43,541 nt of DNA, from positions 1-43,541 of the forward strand of contig QUIQ01000016.1 of assembly GCA_003480165.1 (NCBI GenBank). The letters are read 5' to 3'. Source of the DNA: Firmicutes bacterium AM41-11. Lineage in GTDB: Bacteria; Bacillota_I; Bacilli_A; Erysipelotrichales; Erysipelotrichaceae. A program made the position numbers and the translations under genes. Positions 4,270 to 30,957 of this stretch are shown in pieces. Below the pieces are notes generated by a model that was not told the origin of the DNA, searched no databases, and was given only the letters and a program-made list of their open reading frames with translations. Positions within the stretch are counted from its first letter, which is position 1. Each line of letters begins with the position of its first letter.

Positions 4270-4298
4270 TTGGTGATTTTATGCAAGTGTGTTAGGAT
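4270..4298 (+). promoter_or_regulatory. Promoter of the first ChW gene
   Basis: TTGGTG (4270-4275), a 17-base spacer and TAGGAT (4293-4298), preceded by an extended TGT. It sits between a terminator and a strong AAAGGAGGAG ribosome binding site (4311-4320). Confidence 0.4.
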
Positions 4299-4323
4299 AT
4301 ACAAGGGTAGAAAGGAGGAGAGA

Positions 4324-5916
4324 ATGAGAAAAAAGAATAAAATTGTTTTATATTTTGTAGTTTATTTGCTTCTTTTTTGTGGATATACTTCGGTAAATAA
4401 AGTGCTTGCAGCAGAAACCACTCCAACTGCGATTAGTGAAACTAGTGAATCCGCAGATCAAAATAATTCGACAACATTAAATGAATCGAATCAATCCGTA
4501 GACGGAACAACTCCAGCAAGTCAGAATACATCGACTTCTGTAAAATATGAAAGCCATGTCCAAAATAATGGATGGCAAGAAGAAAAGAAAGATGGAGAAT
4601 TAAGTGGAACAACAGGCGAAAGCAAGCGATTAGAAGCTGTTAATATTTCTTTAGTAAATCCCGAATACCAAGGGAACATTAATTATCAAGCCCATGTACA
4701 AGATATTGGTTGGCAAACAACCGTTTGGGGCGGACAAGTTGCTGGAACAGTAGGCCAAGCAAAAAGATTAGAAGCTGTTAAAATGTGGTTAACAGGTGAT
4801 ATGGCGAATTATTACAGTATCCAATATCGTGTTCATATTCAAGATATTGGTTGGCAAGATTGGGCTCGTGATGGAATTATCGCCGGAACAATAGGTTTAG
4901 GTAAACGCATTGAAGCGATAGAAATTCGCTTAATAGATTTGCGTACAGTAGACCCAGACATTTATTACTCATCCCATGTACAAGATAAAGGCTGGACCGG
5001 TAACGTACAAAATGGTCAAACGTCTGGAACAACTGGACAATCAAAAAGAATGGAAGCCTTTACGGTAGGATTAAACAATTCTAAATATGGTGGCGATGTT
5101 ATTTATCAAGCCCATGTACAAGATATTGGATGGCAAAATTGGGTTAAAAATGGTCAAGTTGCTGGAACAACTGGCTTAGGGAAGAGCCTACAAGCTATAT
5201 GTATTGCTTTAACTGGAAATATAGCCAATGATTATTCAATTTATTATCGCGTACATTCTAGAGATTTTGGTTGGTTAGATTGGGCTAGTGACGGAAATGT
5301 TGCTGGAACAACAGGCTTAGGAAAAGCTATTGAAGCAATCCAAATTCATTTAATGAAAAAAATTGATTTAAAAGCTCTTGAAACAAATAGTGAAGTATCA
5401 TCTATTTGTGATAAAAAAGGTTATAAAAATGGAGCTGTAGTAACAGAATGGAAAAACATCAATGGAAATAGTTACTACTTTGGAAATGATGGTGTTTTAG
5501 TTGTTAACCAATCCATTAAAAAAGATGGAAAACAAGGTTATGTAAATCAATTTGGAAAGTTCGTTCTTTCTAATTCAGGTTTACCTAGTAATGATTTTGT
5601 TTGGAATGGTCCTAAATTAACAGCTCAAATGGGTGTTAACTATGGCCCAACTGGCAAAGAAACATATTACAATTTACCAATGGGTGGTGTCGTTGCGATT
5701 ATGCGTGGCTTAGGTTATTCGGAAGCAGAATATCCTTATTGGGTTCGTAGCGATGGTGTAAAAATGTTTGGTAACTATGTTATGGTTGCTGCGCATCTAG
5801 GTGTTTTCCCAAGAGGTTCTTTAGTAAACTGTAGTTTAGGAAAAGCCATTGTATGTGATACAGGATCTTTTGCTTATGGAAATCCTTATCAATTAGATAT
5901 CGCCACAAATTGGTAG
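4324..5916 (+). CDS. Secreted ChW-repeat protein with a 3D-like C-terminal domain
   Basis: A 530-residue protein with a signal peptide (cleavage near residue 30, KVLAA), a Ser/Thr/Asn-rich linker (31-73) and six ChW repeats (about 75-345). Each repeat has the pattern HVQDxGW, DGxxxGTTG and KRLEAIxI. A glucan/choline-binding-like module follows (GYKNGAVVTEWKNINGNSYY), then a C-terminal domain of about 100 residues ending with PRGS, VCDTG and LDIATNW. That ending resembles the 3D (double-psi barrel) fold of MltA/YocH-type muralytic enzymes, with Asp in CDTG and in LDIA. I infer a wall-bound peptidoglycan-cleaving enzyme. The ATG at 4324 follows AAAGGAGGAG. It is a close paralogue of the next gene, which carries a GH25 domain instead. 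Confidence 0.75.
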   Translation: MRKKNKIVLYFVVYLLLFCGYTSVNKVLAAETTPTAISETSESADQNNSTTLNESNQSVDGTTPASQNTSTSVKYESHVQNNGWQEEKKDGELSGTTGESKRLEAVNISLVNPEYQGNINYQAHVQDIGWQTTVWGGQVAGTVGQAKRLEAVKMWLTGDMANYYSIQYRVHIQDIGWQDWARDGIIAGTIGLGKRIEAIEIRLIDLRTVDPDIYYSSHVQDKGWTGNVQNGQTSGTTGQSKRMEAFTVGLNNSKYGGDVIYQAHVQDIGWQNWVKNGQVAGTTGLGKSLQAICIALTGNIANDYSIYYRVHSRDFGWLDWASDGNVAGTTGLGKAIEAIQIHLMKKIDLKALETNSEVSSICDKKGYKNGAVVTEWKNINGNSYYFGNDGVLVVNQSIKKDGKQGYVNQFGKFVLSNSGLPSNDFVWNGPKLTAQMGVNYGPTGKETYYNLPMGGVVAIMRGLGYSEAEYPYWVRSDGVKMFGNYVMVAAHLGVFPRGSLVNCSLGKAIVCDTGSFAYGNPYQLDIATNW

Positions 5917-5966: not shown

Positions 5967-7781
5967 ATGAAGAAAAAAGATTATTCACTTTGTGTTTGTT
6001 TTGTTATTTTTGTGATGTGCTTTTTTGGCTTTGTTTCAATAAACAAAGTTTATGCTTCAGAAGTAACTCCGGATGAAATCTCTGAAGTAAATGAATCAAA
6101 TGAATCCTTAGAACAGACAACTCCAACAAGTGGGAACACTTCTACTTCGGTAGATTATGAAAGTCATGTCCAAGACAAAGGATGGCAAGAAGAAAAGAAG
6201 GATGGAGAAGTTAGCGGTACAACTGGTGAAAGTAAGCGAATTGAAGCCGTTAATATTCAATTAGAAAATCAAGAATATCAAGGAAATATTAATTATCAAG
6301 CCCATGTACAAGATATTGGTTGGCAAACAACCGTTTGGGGCGGACAAGTTGCAGGTACAACTGGGCAAAGCAAACGACTAGAAGCAATACGTATTTGGTT
6401 AACTGGCGATATTGCAAATTATTACAGCATTCAATATCGTGCGCATATTCAAGATATTGGTTGGCAAGATTGGGCTTGTGATGGAATTATAGCCGGCACA
6501 ACAGGCCTAGGTAAACGATTAGAAGCTTTGCAAATTTGCTTGGTTCGAATCAACAATCAAGCTGATCCAGAAATCCATTACACATCGCATGTGCAAGATT
6601 ATGGCTGGCAGTCAAATAAAACCGATGGACAAATTTCCGGAACAACCGGACAATCAAAAAGAGTGGAAGCCTTTACGGTAGGATTAAACAATTCTAAATA
6701 TAGTGGTGATGTTATTTATCAAGCCCATGTACAAGATATTGGATGGCAAAACTGGGTTAAAAATGGTCAGATAGCTGGAACAACTGGATTAGGGAAGAGC
6801 CTACAAGCCATACGTATTGCTTTAACTGGAAATATAGCCAATGAATATTCAATTTATTACCGCGTACATTCAAGTGATTTTGGTTGGTTAGATTGGGCTA
6901 GTGATAAAAATGTTGCTGGAACAACAGGCTTAGGAAAAGCTATTGAAGCAATCCAAATTCATTTAATGAAAAAAATTGATTTAAAAGCCCTTGAAACAAA
7001 TAGCGAAGTATCATCTATCTGTGATAGAAAAGGTTATAAAAACGGAGTAGCAGTAACCGGATGGAAAAACATCAATGGAGACAGTTATTACTTTGGCAAT
7101 GATGGTGTATTAGTTGTTAATCAATCTATTACAAAAGATGATAAGCAAGGATATGTAAATAATTTGGGTAAATTTGTGCTTTCAAATAATGGCATTTTCA
7201 TGCATGGAATCGATATTTCAGAATGGAACTATGATATCGATTTAACACCTTATAAGGATAATTTTGTCATTATTCGTCTTGGTTGGTATAACACGTTAGA
7301 TAAGAAAGCATTAAGAAACATTCAATTATGTGAACAATTAGGTATTCCATATGGTGTTTACTTGTATTCATATGCAACAAGTATTGAAGAAAGTAGAATG
7401 GAAGCTAATTTTGTTTTAAATCAATTAAGTCATTGTAGTAATTTACGTGTTGGCGTTTGGTATGACATGGAAGATGCAGATAACTATAAGGCCAATCGTG
7501 GATCTTTGGTTGGCTCATTAATGACCAACATGTGTAATACATTCTGTTCCATTTTACAGAATGCTGGTTACTATACAGGTGTTTATTCGAGCTCTTCATG
7601 GTTTAATTATTATTTGACCAATCTAAATACAAATATTCCTAAATGGGTTGCTCATTGGGATAACAATGATGGTCAATTACATTCGAATTTATCAAACATG
7701 GCTGTACTACACCAATATACAAGCATACCATTAGATCAAAATGTAATGTATGTACCTTTAGAAACATTTAAATTAAAATAA
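5967..7781 (+). CDS. Secreted ChW-repeat GH25 muramidase
   Basis: A 604-residue protein with a signal peptide (about 1-31, ending KVYAS), an acidic Ser/Thr linker, six ChW repeats (about 60-330), one glucan/choline-binding-like module (GYKNGVAVTGWKNINGDSYY) and a C-terminal GH25 lysozyme domain (412-604). GH25 features are GIDISEWN (D416), VWYDMED (D500 and E502 as catalytic acids) and a terminal HQYTS block. It would cleave the MurNAc-GlcNAc bond, with the repeats probably holding it in the wall. The start follows GAGGGAGGGATTCT. Long DNA stretches are almost identical to the preceding gene, so the pair arose by duplication with exchange of the C-terminal domain, possibly with later gene conversion. 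Confidence 0.88.
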   Translation: MKKKDYSLCVCFVIFVMCFFGFVSINKVYASEVTPDEISEVNESNESLEQTTPTSGNTSTSVDYESHVQDKGWQEEKKDGEVSGTTGESKRIEAVNIQLENQEYQGNINYQAHVQDIGWQTTVWGGQVAGTTGQSKRLEAIRIWLTGDIANYYSIQYRAHIQDIGWQDWACDGIIAGTTGLGKRLEALQICLVRINNQADPEIHYTSHVQDYGWQSNKTDGQISGTTGQSKRVEAFTVGLNNSKYSGDVIYQAHVQDIGWQNWVKNGQIAGTTGLGKSLQAIRIALTGNIANEYSIYYRVHSSDFGWLDWASDKNVAGTTGLGKAIEAIQIHLMKKIDLKALETNSEVSSICDRKGYKNGVAVTGWKNINGDSYYFGNDGVLVVNQSITKDDKQGYVNNLGKFVLSNNGIFMHGIDISEWNYDIDLTPYKDNFVIIRLGWYNTLDKKALRNIQLCEQLGIPYGVYLYSYATSIEESRMEANFVLNQLSHCSNLRVGVWYDMEDADNYKANRGSLVGSLMTNMCNTFCSILQNAGYYTGVYSSSSWFNYYLTNLNTNIPKWVAHWDNNDGQLHSNLSNMAVLHQYTSIPLDQNVMYVPLETFKLK

Positions 7782-24182: not shown

Positions 24183-25334
24183 ATGAACTATTATAAAACA
24201 GGACAATTTGCCAAAATGGCAAATGTGTCAGAAAGAACCATTCGTTATTATGATAAAATAGGGTTGTTAAAACCCTCTTTTGTTATGGACAATGGGTATA
24301 GACAATACAGTGAAAAAGATTTTATAAAGCTACAAAAAATATTGGCTTTAAAACATCTTGGATTTTCCATTGAAGATATTTTTCCAATGGTCACAAGTAA
24401 CCAAAAGTTTGAAGATTCATTGAATCTTCAAATCTCTTTAGTTAATTCAAGAATTGCTCATTTGCAGGTTTTAAAAGATGCTTTACAGACTACGATTCGC
24501 CAAATTGAAAATGATTCTTTTGATTGGAAAGATTTGATTTCATTAGTGCAAATGACCAACGATGATTCAAAGATTGTAGAACAATATATGGATTCGAATA
24601 ATCTAAAAGTTCGTATTCAGTTACATAACCAATTTTCTACCAATCCGCAAGGATGGTTTCCGTGGCTCTATAGTCAAATTAATTTTAATGGAGTAAACCG
24701 TTTGTTGGAAGTAGGTTGTGGAAATGGGCAATTGTGGGAAAATAATTCCATCAATTTAAGAAATAGAGAATTTTTCTTATCAGACAGTTCAGAAGGAATG
24801 ATTAACGAAGTTCGACAGAAATTTGGCAAAGATTTTAATTGTATGGTGGTGGATTGCGAAAAGATACCCTTTAAGGATCATTACTTTGATTGTATAATCG
24901 CAAATCACGTTTTGTTCTATTTGAGTGATTTAGACCAAGGTCTATCGGAAATAAAAAGAGTTTTAAAACCCAATGGTATTTTTTATTGTAGTACGTATGG
25001 AAAAAGCCATATGAAAGAAATACAAGATATTGTGAAAGGATTTGATGAAAGAATCGAACTTTCATCAAATCATCTATATGATAAGTTTGGATTAGAAAAT
25101 GCGGATGAATTGTTAAAGCCATTCTTTAAACATATTGAAAAAAAGGAATATAAAGATTCTTTATTAATTAATCAAGCTCAGCCTTTGATTGATTATATTA
25201 TGTCTTGCCATGGGAATCAGAATGAACTGATTGGACCAAGAATGGAAGAATTTAAAACATATATTCAAGAAATAATTGAAAAAAATGGTTCTATTTTTGT
25301 AAGTAAACAAGCAGGGATATTGTTATGTCGATGA
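24183..25334 (+). CDS. MerR-type regulator fused to a SAM-dependent methyltransferase
   Basis: A 383-residue two-part protein. Residues 1-70 are a MerR winged helix (GQFAKMANVSERTIRYYDKI, then GLLKPS and GYRQYSEKD), followed by the family's dimerising helix (about 78-110). Residues about 145-383 are a class I methyltransferase: motif I LLEVGCGNGQ (174-183), an acidic strand (FLSDSSEGM), IPFKDHYFDCIIANHVLFYL and LKPNGIFYCSTYG. The methyltransferase part replaces the usual effector-binding domain, so DNA binding may respond to SAM or to a methyl acceptor. The gene sits two bases behind a GT2 and about 150 bases before a MerR-type promoter in front of rmlA. Regulation of rhamnose synthesis is a plausible inference. 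Confidence 0.85.
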   Translation: MNYYKTGQFAKMANVSERTIRYYDKIGLLKPSFVMDNGYRQYSEKDFIKLQKILALKHLGFSIEDIFPMVTSNQKFEDSLNLQISLVNSRIAHLQVLKDALQTTIRQIENDSFDWKDLISLVQMTNDDSKIVEQYMDSNNLKVRIQLHNQFSTNPQGWFPWLYSQINFNGVNRLLEVGCGNGQLWENNSINLRNREFFLSDSSEGMINEVRQKFGKDFNCMVVDCEKIPFKDHYFDCIIANHVLFYLSDLDQGLSEIKRVLKPNGIFYCSTYGKSHMKEIQDIVKGFDERIELSSNHLYDKFGLENADELLKPFFKHIEKKEYKDSLLINQAQPLIDYIMSCHGNQNELIGPRMEEFKTYIQEIIEKNGSIFVSKQAGILLCR

Positions 25335-25392
25335 AGGAGTTCGACTATAGATAAAAAAATCATTGTTTTTAGATCAGAATCTTCATATGTGA

Positions 25393-25479
25393 GCTATACA
25401 ATTGTTTCAAAGTCAAGGAAAGAATTCTCATTCTTGGAAAGTTACTGCGCCTTTGCGAAAACTGAAAAATCATGAATAA
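25393..25479 (+). pseudogene. Relic of a glycosyltransferase C-terminus
   Basis: A 28-codon open stretch ending in TAA, with no start and a TGA immediately upstream. It translates to AIQLFQSQGKNSHSWKVTAP followed by LRKLKNHE. The SxSWKxTxPLR motif is a common end of long glycosyltransferases and related coiled-coil glycan enzymes. I read it as the last piece of a lost gene just upstream of rmlA. Confidence 0.4.
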
Positions 25480-25482
25480 GAC

Positions 25483-25513
25483 TTGACCCTTACCTTACGT
25501 AAGGGTTTATTAT
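25483..25513 (+). promoter_or_regulatory. MerR-type promoter/operator of the rml operon
   Basis: TTGACC (25483-25488) and TATTAT (25508-25513) are separated by 19 bases, the long spacer typical of MerR-activated promoters. The spacer holds an interrupted dyad, CCCTTAC-CTTAC-GTAAGGG (25487-25505), of the kind MerR relatives bind. It lies 22 bases before the rmlA ATG and about 150 bases after the MerR-methyltransferase gene. Confidence 0.65.
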
Positions 25514-25535
25514 TATGTTAAATGGAGGTCATACT

Positions 25536-26429
25536 ATGAAAGGAATTATTCTTGCAGGTGGTAGTGGTACACGTTTGTATCCATTAACCAAAGTTACTAG
25601 TAAACAATTATTGCCAATTTATGATAAACCGATGATTTATTATCCAATGAGTATTTTAATGAATGCTGGAATTCGTGATATTTTGATTATTTCAACTCCA
25701 GATGATACACCTCGTTTTCAAGAATTATTAGGGGATGGACATCAATTTGGTGTTGAATTATCTTATAAAGTACAACCAAGTCCAGATGGTTTAGCACAAG
25801 CTTTCATTTTAGGTGAAGAATTCATCGGAGATGATAGTGTTGCCATGATTTTAGGAGATAATATTTTCCATGGACATGGATTGACAAAACGTTTACGTGC
25901 TGCTGCTAATAAGGATGCAGGAGCTACTGTTTTTGGATATTATGTGGAAGATCCAGAACGCTTTGGCGTAGTAGAATTTGATGAAAATGGAAAAGCTATT
26001 TCTTTAGAAGAGAAACCAGAACATCCAAAATCAAATTATGCAGTAACAGGATTATACTTCTATGACAATAAAGTCGTAGAATACGCAAAGAACTTAAAAC
26101 CAAGTCCTCGTGGGGAATTGGAAATTACGGATTTAAACCGAATTTACTTAGAAAATAATGAATTGAATGTAACTTTATTAGGTGATGGCTTTACTTGGCT
26201 TGATACAGGTACACATGAATCTTTAGTGGATGCAACAAACTTTGTGAAAACCATTGAAGAACATCAACATCGTAAAATTGCTTGCTTAGAAGAAATTGCT
26301 TTTAAGAATGGCTGGATTGATCGAAAAGAATTAGAAGAAATTTACGAGATTTATAAAAAGAACCAATACGGTGCATATTTAAAGAAAATTATGGACCGGG
26401 CATATGTAGAACAGGAGTGGCATGACTAA
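25536..26429 (+). CDS. rmlA: Glucose-1-phosphate thymidylyltransferase
   Basis: A 297-residue enzyme for the first step of dTDP-L-rhamnose synthesis (dTTP + glucose-1-phosphate to dTDP-glucose). The nucleotide-binding loop [11 protein letters not shown] (8-18), [24 protein letters not shown] and the C-terminal YGAYL block are all intact, and length is typical. The ATG at 25536 follows AATGGAGGTC; an ATG seven codons earlier lies at the edge of the -10 box. It heads the rmlA-rmlC-rmlB run, with the MerR-type promoter directly upstream. Its stop overlaps the rmlC start (TAATG). Confidence 0.97.
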
Positions 26430-27001
26430 TGAAAGTAACAGAAACAAAAATCCCTGGTGTTTTGATTATTGACACAGATGTATTTGGAGATCATAGAGGG
26501 TACTTTACAGAAACATATTCAAAACCAAAATATGAAAAGTTGGGGGTAACCGTAGACTTTGTTCAAGACAATATGTCATTTAGTGCCCAAAAAGGAACTT
26601 TACGAGGTTTACATTGGCAAAATCCTCCTTATGCACAAAGTAAATTAGTATCTTGTACAAAGGGAACAGTCATTGATGTGGCTGTAGATATTCGTAAAGG
26701 AAGTCCAACATTTGGACAATGGGTAAGTGTTGAATTAAGTGAAGAAAATCACCGTCAATTTTTTATTCCCCAAGGCTTTGCTCATGGTTTCTTAACTTTA
26801 ACAGATAATGTAGAATTCAGATATAAAGTAGATAACGTATACAATAAAGAATCTGAAGGCGGTATGCGTTATGATGATCCAACATGTAATGTTGACTGGG
26901 GATCATTATTAAACGGTATTGAACCTGTATTAAGTGAAAAAGACCAAGTTGGTCCAACACTAGAAGAATCAAATAATCAATTTACATACAAAGGAGAATA
27001 A
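26429..27001 (+). CDS. rmlC: dTDP-4-dehydrorhamnose 3,5-epimerase
   Basis: A 190-residue cupin epimerase for the third step of dTDP-rhamnose synthesis. Diagnostic motifs are TLRGLHWQNPPYAQSKLV (active-site His62 and Lys72), DVAVDIRKGSPTFGQW and FFIPQGFAHGFLTL. Length is normal. Gene order is rmlA-rmlC-rmlB, and its start shares one base with the rmlA stop, so translation is coupled. Confidence 0.97.
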   Translation: MKVTETKIPGVLIIDTDVFGDHRGYFTETYSKPKYEKLGVTVDFVQDNMSFSAQKGTLRGLHWQNPPYAQSKLVSCTKGTVIDVAVDIRKGSPTFGQWVSVELSEENHRQFFIPQGFAHGFLTLTDNVEFRYKVDNVYNKESEGGMRYDDPTCNVDWGSLLNGIEPVLSEKDQVGPTLEESNNQFTYKGE

Positions 27002-27005
27002 CACA

Positions 27006-28040
27006 ATGAAAATTTTAGTAACAGGTGGAGCTGGATTTATTGGAGGAAACTTTGTTCATTACATGGTTAATAAATATCCAGAAGATATGATTGTAAACTT
27101 AGATAAGTTAACCTATGCAGGAAATCTAGAAACATGTAAACCCGTAGAAGATAAACCAAACTATAAATTTATTAAAGGGGATATTGCTGACCGTCCATTC
27201 ATTATGGATTTATTTGAAAAAGAAAAATTTGATGTCGTTGTTAACTTTGCCGCAGAAAGCCATGTAGACCGTTCCATTGAAGATCCAGAAATCTTCGTTA
27301 AGACGAATGTAATGGGAACAACTACATTATTAGATGCATGTGTTAAATATGGAATCAAACGTTATCACCAAGTATCTACAGATGAAGTATATGGAGATTT
27401 ACCTTTAGATCGTCCTGATTTATTCTTTACAGAAGAAACTCCATTACATACATCTAGCCCATATTCTTCGGCAAAAGCTAGTGCAGATTTATTTGTACTT
27501 GCATATCACAGAACCTATGGTTTACCGGTAACAGTAAGTCGTTGTTCAAACAACTATGGACCATATCATTTCCCAGAAAAATTAATTCCATTAATTATTT
27601 CTCGTGCATTAAATGACGAAACAATTCCAGTATATGGAACTGGAGAAAATGTACGTGACTGGTTACATGTATATGACCATTGCGTAGCGATTGATTTAAT
27701 CGTTCGTAAAGGACGCGTTGGTGAAGTCTATAATGTAGGTGGTCACAACGAAAGAACAAACTTAGAAGTTGTAAAAACTGTGCTTCATGCATTAAATAAA
27801 CCAGAAAGTTTGATTACTTTTGTACAAGACCGAAAAGGACATGACCGTCGTTATGCAATTGATCCTACTAAACTTGAAACAGAATTAGGATGGAAACCAA
27901 AATATACTTTTGATACAGGTATTCCAATGACGATTCAATGGTATTTAGACAACAAAGAATGGTGGGAACACATCATTAATGGAGAATACCAAAATTACTT
28001 TGAAAAGATGTATGTAGAAAAAGGAAGAGCTAAGGAATAA
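27006..28040 (+). CDS. rmlB: dTDP-glucose 4,6-dehydratase
   Basis: A 344-residue short-chain dehydrogenase-type enzyme for the second step (dTDP-glucose to dTDP-4-keto-6-deoxyglucose). It has the Rossmann motif TGGAGFIG (6-13), FAAESHVDRSIEDP, STDEVYGDL and YSSAKASAD with the catalytic Tyr-x-x-x-Lys. Length is typical. It starts four bases after rmlC behind an AAAGGAGAA ribosome binding site and is followed one base later by a GT14 gene. Confidence 0.97.
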   Translation: MKILVTGGAGFIGGNFVHYMVNKYPEDMIVNLDKLTYAGNLETCKPVEDKPNYKFIKGDIADRPFIMDLFEKEKFDVVVNFAAESHVDRSIEDPEIFVKTNVMGTTTLLDACVKYGIKRYHQVSTDEVYGDLPLDRPDLFFTEETPLHTSSPYSSAKASADLFVLAYHRTYGLPVTVSRCSNNYGPYHFPEKLIPLIISRALNDETIPVYGTGENVRDWLHVYDHCVAIDLIVRKGRVGEVYNVGGHNERTNLEVVKTVLHALNKPESLITFVQDRKGHDRRYAIDPTKLETELGWKPKYTFDTGIPMTIQWYLDNKEWWEHIINGEYQNYFEKMYVEKGRAKE

Positions 28041-28897: not shown

Positions 28898-30043
28898 ATG
28901 AAAAATATTTATATAGTTTTCGATAAACTACATTCGAATGAAGCTGGTGGACTTGTCTCAGCGTATTCATCATTCATACAATTATTAAAAGATGACTATA
29001 CAATAAAAGTCATTAGTGTCATTGATTCCAATATAACTGAATATGATTTGTTTTCAGACTGTGAAATTATTAATATTTCAAAACATGATTTTTTTCCAAA
29101 AATGGAAGTTATATCAGATAGCATAAAATATTTTAATTTGTTTTCATTGCTTAAAGAGCTTTTCAAGTTGTTTTGTTATTTTTGTTATATTCCGATTTCA
29201 CGTACCAAAATGAGAAAGTTATTTTCTCCAGATGATATTATTATAGTTTCTTCTCCGGCTGCTGCCATGTTCATGAGTTCAAAGAATCGGTTTATACTGG
29301 AAATACATACAAAGTTTGAATATTTTTGGGGAACTAATAAACTAGGCAGGCTTCAAAGTAAGTTGATGTCAAAGCCATATGTTACTGTTTTTAGAACAAA
29401 GGCAGATATGAAAAAAGGAAATCAGTTTTTTAATTCCACATATTCTTATAATTTTATAGATAAAAAGATTTTCAATAATACTGTAAGTATTGGGGATGAG
29501 AAAAGAAAACATAAAATCATTTATATGGGTCGATTTGGAAAAGAAAAGAATCTTCCTAAAATGATAGAATGTGCAAAACAATTGAAAAAACAGGTTCCAA
29601 ATTTTACCTTAGACATGTATGGTAATGGTATTTTAGTAAATGATATCAGAAGATTGATTGAAGAAAATGACTTAAATGAGAATGTTCATTTGTGTGGTTT
29701 TTGCAATGATAAGAATATTTTTGACGACTACTCTCTATTATGGATGACTTCTAACTTTGAAGGTATGAGTATGACAATTATTGAAGCTAAGGCAAAAGGT
29801 GTCCCTACAATTTCAACAAATTGGGGCGATGGTGTATTTGAAGTGATATATGATAAAACTGATGGTTTTGTAGAAAATACAGTTGAAGGTATAGTGAATC
29901 GAACTGTTGAATTGTTTAACGATAAGGATGAACTGATAAGTATTTCAAATAATGCTCTTGCAAATTTTGAAGAATTTAGTAAAGAAAATGCATATAGAAG
30001 ATGGAAAGAGATTCTCAATAATTATGAAGGAGGTATCAATTAA
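28898..30043 (+). CDS. GT4 family glycosyltransferase
   Basis: A 381-residue GT-B enzyme. The N-terminal half is divergent but contains a GG turn near the start (NEAGGLVSAYSS). The C-terminal half has the GT4 features IIYMGRFGKEKNLPKMI, FTLDMYGNG, VHLCGFC and the retaining-enzyme motif NFEGMSMTIIEAKAKGVP. It uses a nucleotide sugar to extend the glycan. The ribosome binding site is CAGGAG. Its stop shares a base with the rmlD start, so it is translated together with the rhamnose genes. Base composition looks slightly more AT-rich than the rml genes around it, which would suit an inserted gene. Confidence 0.85.
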   Translation: MKNIYIVFDKLHSNEAGGLVSAYSSFIQLLKDDYTIKVISVIDSNITEYDLFSDCEIINISKHDFFPKMEVISDSIKYFNLFSLLKELFKLFCYFCYIPISRTKMRKLFSPDDIIIVSSPAAAMFMSSKNRFILEIHTKFEYFWGTNKLGRLQSKLMSKPYVTVFRTKADMKKGNQFFNSTYSYNFIDKKIFNNTVSIGDEKRKHKIIYMGRFGKEKNLPKMIECAKQLKKQVPNFTLDMYGNGILVNDIRRLIEENDLNENVHLCGFCNDKNIFDDYSLLWMTSNFEGMSMTIIEAKAKGVPTISTNWGDGVFEVIYDKTDGFVENTVEGIVNRTVELFNDKDELISISNNALANFEEFSKENAYRRWKEILNNYEGGIN

Positions 30044-30957
30044 TGAAGATTTTTGTGACAGGAGTTGCTGGACAACTCGGACATGATGTAATGAATGAAT
30101 TGGCTTCTAGAGGCTATGAAGGAATTGGAACAGATTTAGCACCCGAATACAGTGGTGTGCAAGATGGTAGTTATGTAACTACTGCTCAATATGTTTCTTT
30201 GGATATTACCAATAAAGAAGCAGTAGATAAAACTATCCAAGAAATTCATCCAGATGTTGTAGTACATTGTGCAGCTTGGACAGCTGTTGATGCAGCGGAA
30301 GATGAAGATAAGCAAGCGAAAGTAAGAGCCATTAATGCAGGGGGAACACAAAATATTGCCAGTGCATGTAAAGAAGTAAATGCTAAGATGGTTTATATTT
30401 CAACTGATTATGTATTTGATGGCCAAGGTACAGAACCATGGCAACCTGATTGTAAAGACTATAAGCCTTTAAATGTATATGGACAAACTAAATTAGAAGG
30501 TGAATTAGCTGTTTCTCAAACCCTTGATAAGTATTTTATTGTTCGTATTGCTTGGGTATTTGGTAAGAATGGTAACAACTTTATTAAAACCATGTTAAAT
30601 GTAGGGAAGAAATATGACACGTTAAAAGTCGTAAATGATCAAATTGGTACCCCAACTTATACTTATGATTTAGCTCGATTATTAGTGGATATGATTGAAA
30701 CAGATAAATATGGTTATTATCATGCAACCAATGAAGGTGGATATATTAGTTGGTATGATTTTGCCTGTGAAATCTTTAAACAAGCCGGATATACCAATAC
30801 AGTTATTCCTGTAACTACAGAAGAATATGGTTTATCTAAAGCTGCAAGACCATTTAACTCAAGATTAGATAAATCTAAACTTGTAGAAAATGGCTTTAAA
30901 CCCTTGCCAACATGGCAAGATGCATTAGCTAGATATTTGAAGGAAATTGAATTATAA
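30043..30957 (+). CDS. rmlD: dTDP-4-dehydrorhamnose reductase
   Basis: A 304-residue reductase for the last step of dTDP-L-rhamnose synthesis. It shows the NADPH motif VTGVAGQLGHDV, the HCAAWTAVDAAE block, STDYVFDG and the catalytic YGQTK. Length is typical for RmlD. It is separated from rmlB by the GT14 and GT4 genes, an order that suggests insertion into an rmlACBD operon. A terminator follows. Confidence 0.96.
   Translation: MKIFVTGVAGQLGHDVMNELASRGYEGIGTDLAPEYSGVQDGSYVTTAQYVSLDITNKEAVDKTIQEIHPDVVVHCAAWTAVDAAEDEDKQAKVRAINAGGTQNIASACKEVNAKMVYISTDYVFDGQGTEPWQPDCKDYKPLNVYGQTKLEGELAVSQTLDKYFIVRIAWVFGKNGNNFIKTMLNVGKKYDTLKVVNDQIGTPTYTYDLARLLVDMIETDKYGYYHATNEGGYISWYDFACEIFKQAGYTNTVIPVTTEEYGLSKAARPFNSRLDKSKLVENGFKPLPTWQDALARYLKEIEL

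Follow-up and report, generated by a model that had tools for sequence, protein, structure and literature searches.

Activators of the MerR family bind between promoter boxes that are 19-20 bp apart, untwist the DNA, and shorten the distance between the boxes, as described in passages of PMC5045206 and PMC1526738. Among proteins with solved structures, the nearest to the DNA-binding head of the protein that we describe here are Mta, TipA, and BmrR (PDB 1jbg, 2vz4, 3q5p, and others; found by sequence search). The architecture of our protein, a MerR head fused to a methyltransferase, is common and is already annotated. MerR and methyltransferase Pfam domains are both present in the best 120 of 6424 and in the best 120 of 5768 matches, and the named carriers among the matches listed are Faecalicoccus, Holdemanella, Absicoccus, and Lachnospiraceae, as well as a Lactobacillus plasmid. 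Entries with this same architecture are annotated as "MerR family transcriptional regulator" or "methyltransferase domain-containing protein." No target, operator, or signal is stated for them in the names among the matches listed or in the accessible text of the papers that we searched. A search of the accessible literature, with most subscription journals outside it, found nothing on a MerR-methyltransferase fusion or on a MerR regulator of the dTDP-rhamnose (rml) genes.

We analyzed a stretch of 43,541 nucleotides from Firmicutes bacterium AM41-11 (the window). It is very likely, in our view, that the MerR-methyltransferase fusion in this window is a local and dedicated regulator of the rml operon, and that it acts as a MerR-type switch at the operon's promoter. 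The parts of the fusion gene are:

24183..25334, plus strand: MerR-methyltransferase fusion, 383 amino acids (from domain profiles and synteny)
24192..24380, plus strand: MerR winged-helix DNA-binding head, residues 4-66 (from profiles and solved relatives)
24408..24509, plus strand: predicted long helix (residues 76-109) where MerR proteins have their dimerisation coiled coil (from an AlphaFold2 model)
24705..24989, plus strand: core of the class I SAM methyltransferase (residues 175-269), in which G178, G180, G182, and D201 are invariant (from profiles, alignment, model, and Foldseek)
25203..25220, plus strand: SCHGNQ (residues 341-346), the same in all of the 88 fusions that were aligned

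According to the first-pass annotation, this gene fuses a MerR head with a class I SAM methyltransferase; Pfam profiles bear this out. The head matches MerR_1 at residues 4-66 (2.5e-15) and scores as a MerR head against both PF13411 (56.8 bits, cut-off 21.6) and PF00376 (48.1 bits, cut-off 28.2). The long dimerisation helix that follows the head in MerR proteins is predicted here as well, as helix 76-109 of a monomer AlphaFold2 model (mean pLDDT 90.9, pTM 0.84). In this model, the parts follow each other in the order head, long helix, helical linker, and methyltransferase; confidence is lowest in the helical linker, with blocks near residues 71-80 and 111-130 at pLDDT 69-84.

Class I SAM methyltransferases are marked by a GxGxG motif (motif I) and an acidic residue after strand 2. 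The fusion has this fold and both of these marks, as judged by profile, invariant residues, and Foldseek: Methyltransf_11 matches at residues 175-269 (1e-20; PF08241, 74.6 bits, far above the cut-off), and the model's Foldseek matches (OxaG, TmtA, BioC, and similar proteins) are methyltransferases of small molecules. The best NCBIfam score is also for BioC (TIGR02072, 82 bits); this is far below the cut-off of 184.95, so we rejected the identification of the fusion as BioC (malonyl-ACP O-methyltransferase). Across 88 aligned fusions (43-98% identity to the window protein), G178, G180, G182, D201, H242, F245, Y246, H276, and the SCHGNQ segment are invariant. SCHGNQ is absent from six of seven stand-alone methyltransferase homologues, and the open frame of the seventh stops before the SCHGNQ position. 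The neighbors of these stand-alone homologues (7 loci) are scattered and do not point to any substrate. Among the matches listed when solved structures were searched by sequence (in the second search, 60 of 61), no chain matched both halves of the fusion.

The glycosyltransferase gene upstream stops 2 bases before the fusion gene begins, so the two are most likely co-transcribed. We also note that, farther upstream in the window, 4270-5916 and 5967-7781 encode adjacent long proteins that, by eye, have common repeats around HVQDxGWQ and GTTGQSKRxEA.

Behind the fusion lie the promoter and the rml genes:

25483..25488, plus strand: -35 element TTGACC (read from the sequence)
25487..25505, plus strand: exact dyad CCCTTAC-CTTAC-GTAAGGG, the proposed operator (from the sequence and the comparison of sites)
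25489..25507, plus strand: spacer of 19 bases (read from the sequence)
25508..25513, plus strand: -10 element TATTAT, separated by 19 bases from the -35 element
25524..25528, plus strand: Shine-Dalgarno-like GGAGG (read from the sequence)
25536..26429, plus strand: rmlA, glucose-1-phosphate thymidylyltransferase, which opens the proposed controlled operon (TIGR01207, 492.3 bits, cut-off 360.65)
26429..27001, plus strand: rmlC, dTDP-4-dehydrorhamnose 3,5-epimerase (TIGR01221, 225.6 bits, cut-off 155.75)
27006..28040, plus strand: rmlB, dTDP-glucose 4,6-dehydratase (TIGR01181, 490.7 bits, cut-off 365.1)
30043..30957, plus strand: rmlD, dTDP-4-dehydrorhamnose reductase (TIGR01214, 294.6 bits, cut-off 224.05)

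All four rml genes score above the NCBIfam equivalog cut-offs, and rmlD is preceded by genes for Branch-type and group 1 glycosyltransferases. The promoter had been described as lying about 150 bases past the fusion stop and directly before rmlA, with a 19-base spacer and the CCCTTAC-n5-GTAAGGG dyad between the hexamers. This description is correct, with the -35 element 148 bases past the stop. The promoter (25483-25513) ends 22 bp before the ATG of rmlA at 25536; we chose this start from the GGAGG and from relatives, and the mechanical list of open reading frames has 25515. The dyad pattern with up to 3 mismatches was expected 0.34 times in the window and was found twice (the rmlA site with 0 mismatches, the other with 3), for a pattern that was derived from the rmlA site itself. 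The promoter thus has the 19-20 bp spacer with a dyad between the hexamers that is typical of MerR targets, and comparison with other genomes would assign it to the fusion. Between the fusion stop and the promoter (25335-25482), frame 0 is open for 46 codons and lacks a start (RSSTIDKKIIVFRSESSYVS...); by eye, it resembles a possible remnant of a gene start, like the gene behind the fusion in Holdemanella biformis.

We compared the window with two named genomes, Holdemanella porci (L001) and H. biformis (L002; fusion 65% identical). In both, the fusion lies within a polysaccharide locus. Three genes separate the fusion from rmlA in H. porci and one does in H. biformis, and a promoter of the same build as in the window lies directly before rmlA (TTGACCCTAACGTAACGTTAGGGTTTATTGT and TTGACCCTTACGTTACGTAAGGGCTTATTGT, respectively).

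For a broader comparison, we turned to 195 genomes of the family, a sample taken from a larger group, with cutoffs of E = 1e-30 or better for the fusion and 1e-80 for rmlA. The fusion had matches in 39 genomes, of which 34 include the MerR head and 5 cover the methyltransferase part only (by query ranges). rmlA was found in 91 genomes, at 93 places, and is present in 32 of the 34 fusion genomes (the exceptions are G030 and G190). We scanned for the site with the pattern TTGACNNNNACGTNNCGTNNNNGNTTA, allowing at most one mismatch, and found it at 44 places in 42 of the 195 genomes; the backward control gave 12. A site was found 24-55 bp before rmlA in 25 of the 32 fusion genomes with rmlA, versus 0 of the 59 fusion-free genomes with rmlA (each of the 93 rmlA places compared with each of the 44 sites; Fisher p = 2e-16, uncorrected for kinship). 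The remaining 19 sites comprise 3 in fusion genomes (G141, G002, and G058) and 16 in fusion-free genomes. In 20 of the 25 genomes, the fusion and the site are on one contig; they are then always on the same strand (20/20), with the site following the fusion match at a distance of 7 bp to 5.3 kb from its end. When we read the loci of 30 sites, 21 were before rmlA, 7 belonged to fusion-free genomes and preceded other merR genes, and 2 were before other genes.

Seven fusion genomes have rmlA and no pattern match before it. Four of these have a variant of the dyad before rmlA (G040, G102, G154, and G029), and in one the locus is cut by the end of the contig (G147). In the other two (G141 and G177), rmlB comes first, followed by rmlD and rmlA, and the site is right behind the fusion and before rmlB. 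Therefore, the site goes with the first rml gene, not with rmlA as such.

The 25 genomes supply 17 distinct sites, from which we built a weight matrix; we then ran it over the 200 bp upstream of each rml gene start that was found. In the family fusion set (n = 33, which does not include G030), all 31 testable loci scored 11.5 or more (25 had trained the matrix and 6 had not); the other two, G147 and G190, have no first rml gene. Fusion matches were also found in at least 18 genomes of a 392-genome phylum sample (up to 4 candidates scored per genome). Besides the family loci, we considered 13 more: the window and 12 loci that come from 11 additional genomes of that sample. All 10 of the further loci that have rml genes (window included) carry the site before the first rml gene, with scores of 13.7-42.4. 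None of the 60 fusion-free loci (59 genomes) reached the threshold, with 5 of the 60 having no scannable rmlA start (L175, L194, L216, L221, and L223), and their best score was 1.4. We set the threshold after the fact, at the lowest score of any fusion locus (11.5); the gap from 1.4 to 11.5 is empty.

To account for kinship, we used a maximum-likelihood tree of RmlA (101 rows; contrasts on 100 rows, with G147 left out). On this tree, the presence of the fusion requires 9 changes, of which at least 7 are forced by supported branches. Among independent pairs that differ in the fusion and are on supported branches, the site goes with the fusion in 7 of 7 (p = 0.016; site states for the 7 contrasts were taken from the matrix scan). 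Because the fusion and its likely site have been gained and lost together, the fusion very probably controls the rml genes, which supply activated rhamnose for the cell wall in this group of gut bacteria.

The arrangement of the loci was examined by laying out 42 fusion loci by similarity to the window genes. The rml genes are behind the fusion and on the same strand in 33. In the other 9 loci, 1 is convergent, 5 have the end of the contig or stretch or have rml on another contig, and 3 are without rml. In G251, the fusion and the rml genes converge, and the site is still before rmlA. Export or glycosyltransferase genes are often ahead of the fusion. Some genes are commoner near rmlA (-8/+4 kb) in fusion loci than in fusion-free loci, namely rmlC (41/41 vs. 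21/56), a large glycosyltransferase (11/41 vs. 1/56), and DPMS-like genes (11/41 vs. 3/56); this tells us only that the types of locus differ. One genome (G487; L154 and L155) has two unlike copies of the fusion. Behind each copy lies a separate rml operon, and the two sites have different arms. This arrangement is a natural pair for studying specificity.

The 41 fusion-site pairs give 35 distinct 31-mers. TTGAC is present in 28 of the 35, TA...T is at the -10 place in 34, and A10, C11, T13, G17, and T18 are invariant; the patterns used to pick most of the sites already include those letters, so these counts describe the site rather than test it. The -35 element is degenerate in two pairs (G040 and G029). 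The usual core of the dyad is ACGTnnCGT, and the left half in the window is ACCT. Among 30 distinct 27-mers, 83% of 240 cells are paired on the true axis versus at most 64% on other axes, and the symmetry is kept while the arms vary (CCCTTAC, CCATGAC, CCACTAC, CCATTAC, CCCTAAC, and AGATGAC). Head residues 17 and 39 correlate with the outer bases of the arms (z of about 5.5-8), with positions 52, 63, and 70 higher; these values are uncorrected for kinship, and we give them little weight as evidence for pairing.

As a check on the proposal, we looked for homologues whose conserved operator lies elsewhere. Where the fusion accompanies rml genes, we found none. Three fusions (G486, G405, and G323) and two plasmid homologues do have other neighbors. 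The stretches that we fetched around those three fusions have no rml genes and no site near the fusion; the stretch from G486 has one weak match to the matrix (12.5), on the other strand and some kilobases away from the fusion. Their heads read SIRTIRWYD (G486 and G405) or SNRTIRYYD (G323), and genes other than rml adjoin them (L153, L156, and L161). In a quick tree of 49 fusions, the rml-unlinked ones fall among the linked ones. The plasmid homologue from Lactobacillus johnsonii has no rml neighbors and no such site ahead of the gene. Therefore, the rml link is not universal for MerR-methyltransferases, and there may be other targets.

The other plasmid homologue, from Niallia sp. Man26 (L226 7986-9703; 36% identity), has TTGAAGGTGACGTTACGTTACCATGTACAAT (TTGAAGGTGACGTTACGTTACC-n3-TACAAT), with 19-bp spacing, which begins about 80 bp before its own start. 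A NUDIX gene is 2 bases behind this gene. Since the homologue has the same type of site at its own promoter, the MerR head of the fusion seems to read this class of operator. The ancestral target may have been the fusion's own promoter. In the small loci that we scanned, no such site precedes the fusion gene. In the seven fusion-free loci in which this operator class is directly before merR-like genes (L036, L038, L043, L050, L062, L063, and L064), those genes are probably autoregulated regulators, and so the operator class serves other MerR proteins too.

These seven sites raise another explanation, in which some other MerR protein of the genome reads the site before rmlA and the fusion is only a neighbor, such as an enzyme that methylates the polymer. 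The intact methyltransferase motif of the fusion would fit with this. However, none of the 59 fusion-free genomes with rmlA has the site before that gene, all seven independent contrasts agree, the fusion has a MerR head of its own, and a distant homologue has this type of site ahead of its own gene. We reject this explanation because of the co-inheritance of the fusion and the site, and consider it quite improbable. A hairpin of an intrinsic terminator or attenuator ahead of rmlA would also produce a dyad, and the one in the window does score as terminator-like, with a weak stem-loop of 9 pairs and a T-rich tail (TATTATTATG). This second explanation is disfavored because of the comparison with other genomes, beyond the window sequence alone: the hexamers and their spacing are conserved together with the dyad in 41 pairs, and the stretches behind the dyad are not pure T-runs in the site loci that we read. 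Also, the fold of the RNA is unexceptional (z = -1.25; 25 of 200 shuffles fold as well), and, by eye, G500 and G521 seem to have a separate stem-loop and T-run between the fusion and the site. Given the conserved promoter build and the fold z-score, we reject the terminator and think that there is very little chance that it is correct.

Control of the rml promoter by the fusion, as had been proposed from the window, is thus strongly supported by sequence comparisons: besides co-inheritance and same-strand adjacency (20/20), there are only 3 sites besides the 25 in fusion genomes, the symmetry is kept with varying arms, and a distant homologue has this type of site at its promoter. As comparison across genomes shows, the putative regulator, the site, and the likely target operon belong together. 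Because the head, the helix, the site, and the spacing match the MerR family, we predict a MerR mode of action. The fusion would be made along with the upstream polysaccharide genes, and a dimer of it, as in other MerR proteins, would bind the dyad that lies, at the first rml gene, between promoter elements set too far apart (19 bp). With no signal, the bound dimer would keep the rml promoter weak; with signal, it would activate the promoter by underwinding, with the sign of regulation (activation) taken by analogy from the MerR family.

The signal probably enters via the methyltransferase domain, which replaces the usual effector domain. We suggest SAM or SAH and probably a second small molecule, because the residues for SAM are intact and further residues are invariant; the SCHGNQ segment is a candidate contact for the second molecule. 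It is possible, and we propose this tentatively, that an active methyltransferase in the place of the effector makes this protein a "trigger enzyme," in which turnover of a metabolite of the envelope or sugar pathway sets the twist of the rml promoter. If so, the supply of rhamnose for the wall polymer would follow the status of the methyl donor and that metabolite, and G487, with its two fusion-site pairs, would contain two such circuits in a single cell. A variant of our main explanation, which keeps the link to rml, is that the methyltransferase domain is catalytically silent and that the level of SAM or SAH alone is the signal. The SAM motif is invariant, and the C-terminal domain of MerR proteins is described as ligand-binding (in passages of PMC5045206), which would fit. 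However, conservation extends beyond the SAM motif (H242, F245, Y246, H276, and SCHGNQ), as expected for a second ligand, so we consider the variant somewhat unlikely.

Our results give the widespread annotation of MerR plus methyltransferase a likely set of target genes, a putative operator, and an experimental system, and they name a likely dedicated transcriptional switch for the supply of dTDP-rhamnose in Erysipelotrichaceae and relatives. Compared to BioC-like and other small-molecule class I methyltransferases, the fusion has a similar fold (OxaG, TmtA, and BioC), but it differs in having a fused MerR head and its own C-terminal SCHGNQ segment. Compared to Mta, TipA, and BmrR, the fusion is similar in its head and in the predicted long helix after the head, and its putative site has, as in that family, a dyad inside an over-long 19-bp spacer (as described in passages of PMC5045206 and PMC1526738). 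Unlike in those proteins, the place of the effector domain is taken by a class I methyltransferase that looks intact; if it is the sensor, then methyltransferases join the effector domains of MerR proteins. The likely target also differs, being a sugar-nucleotide operon rather than efflux or metal resistance.
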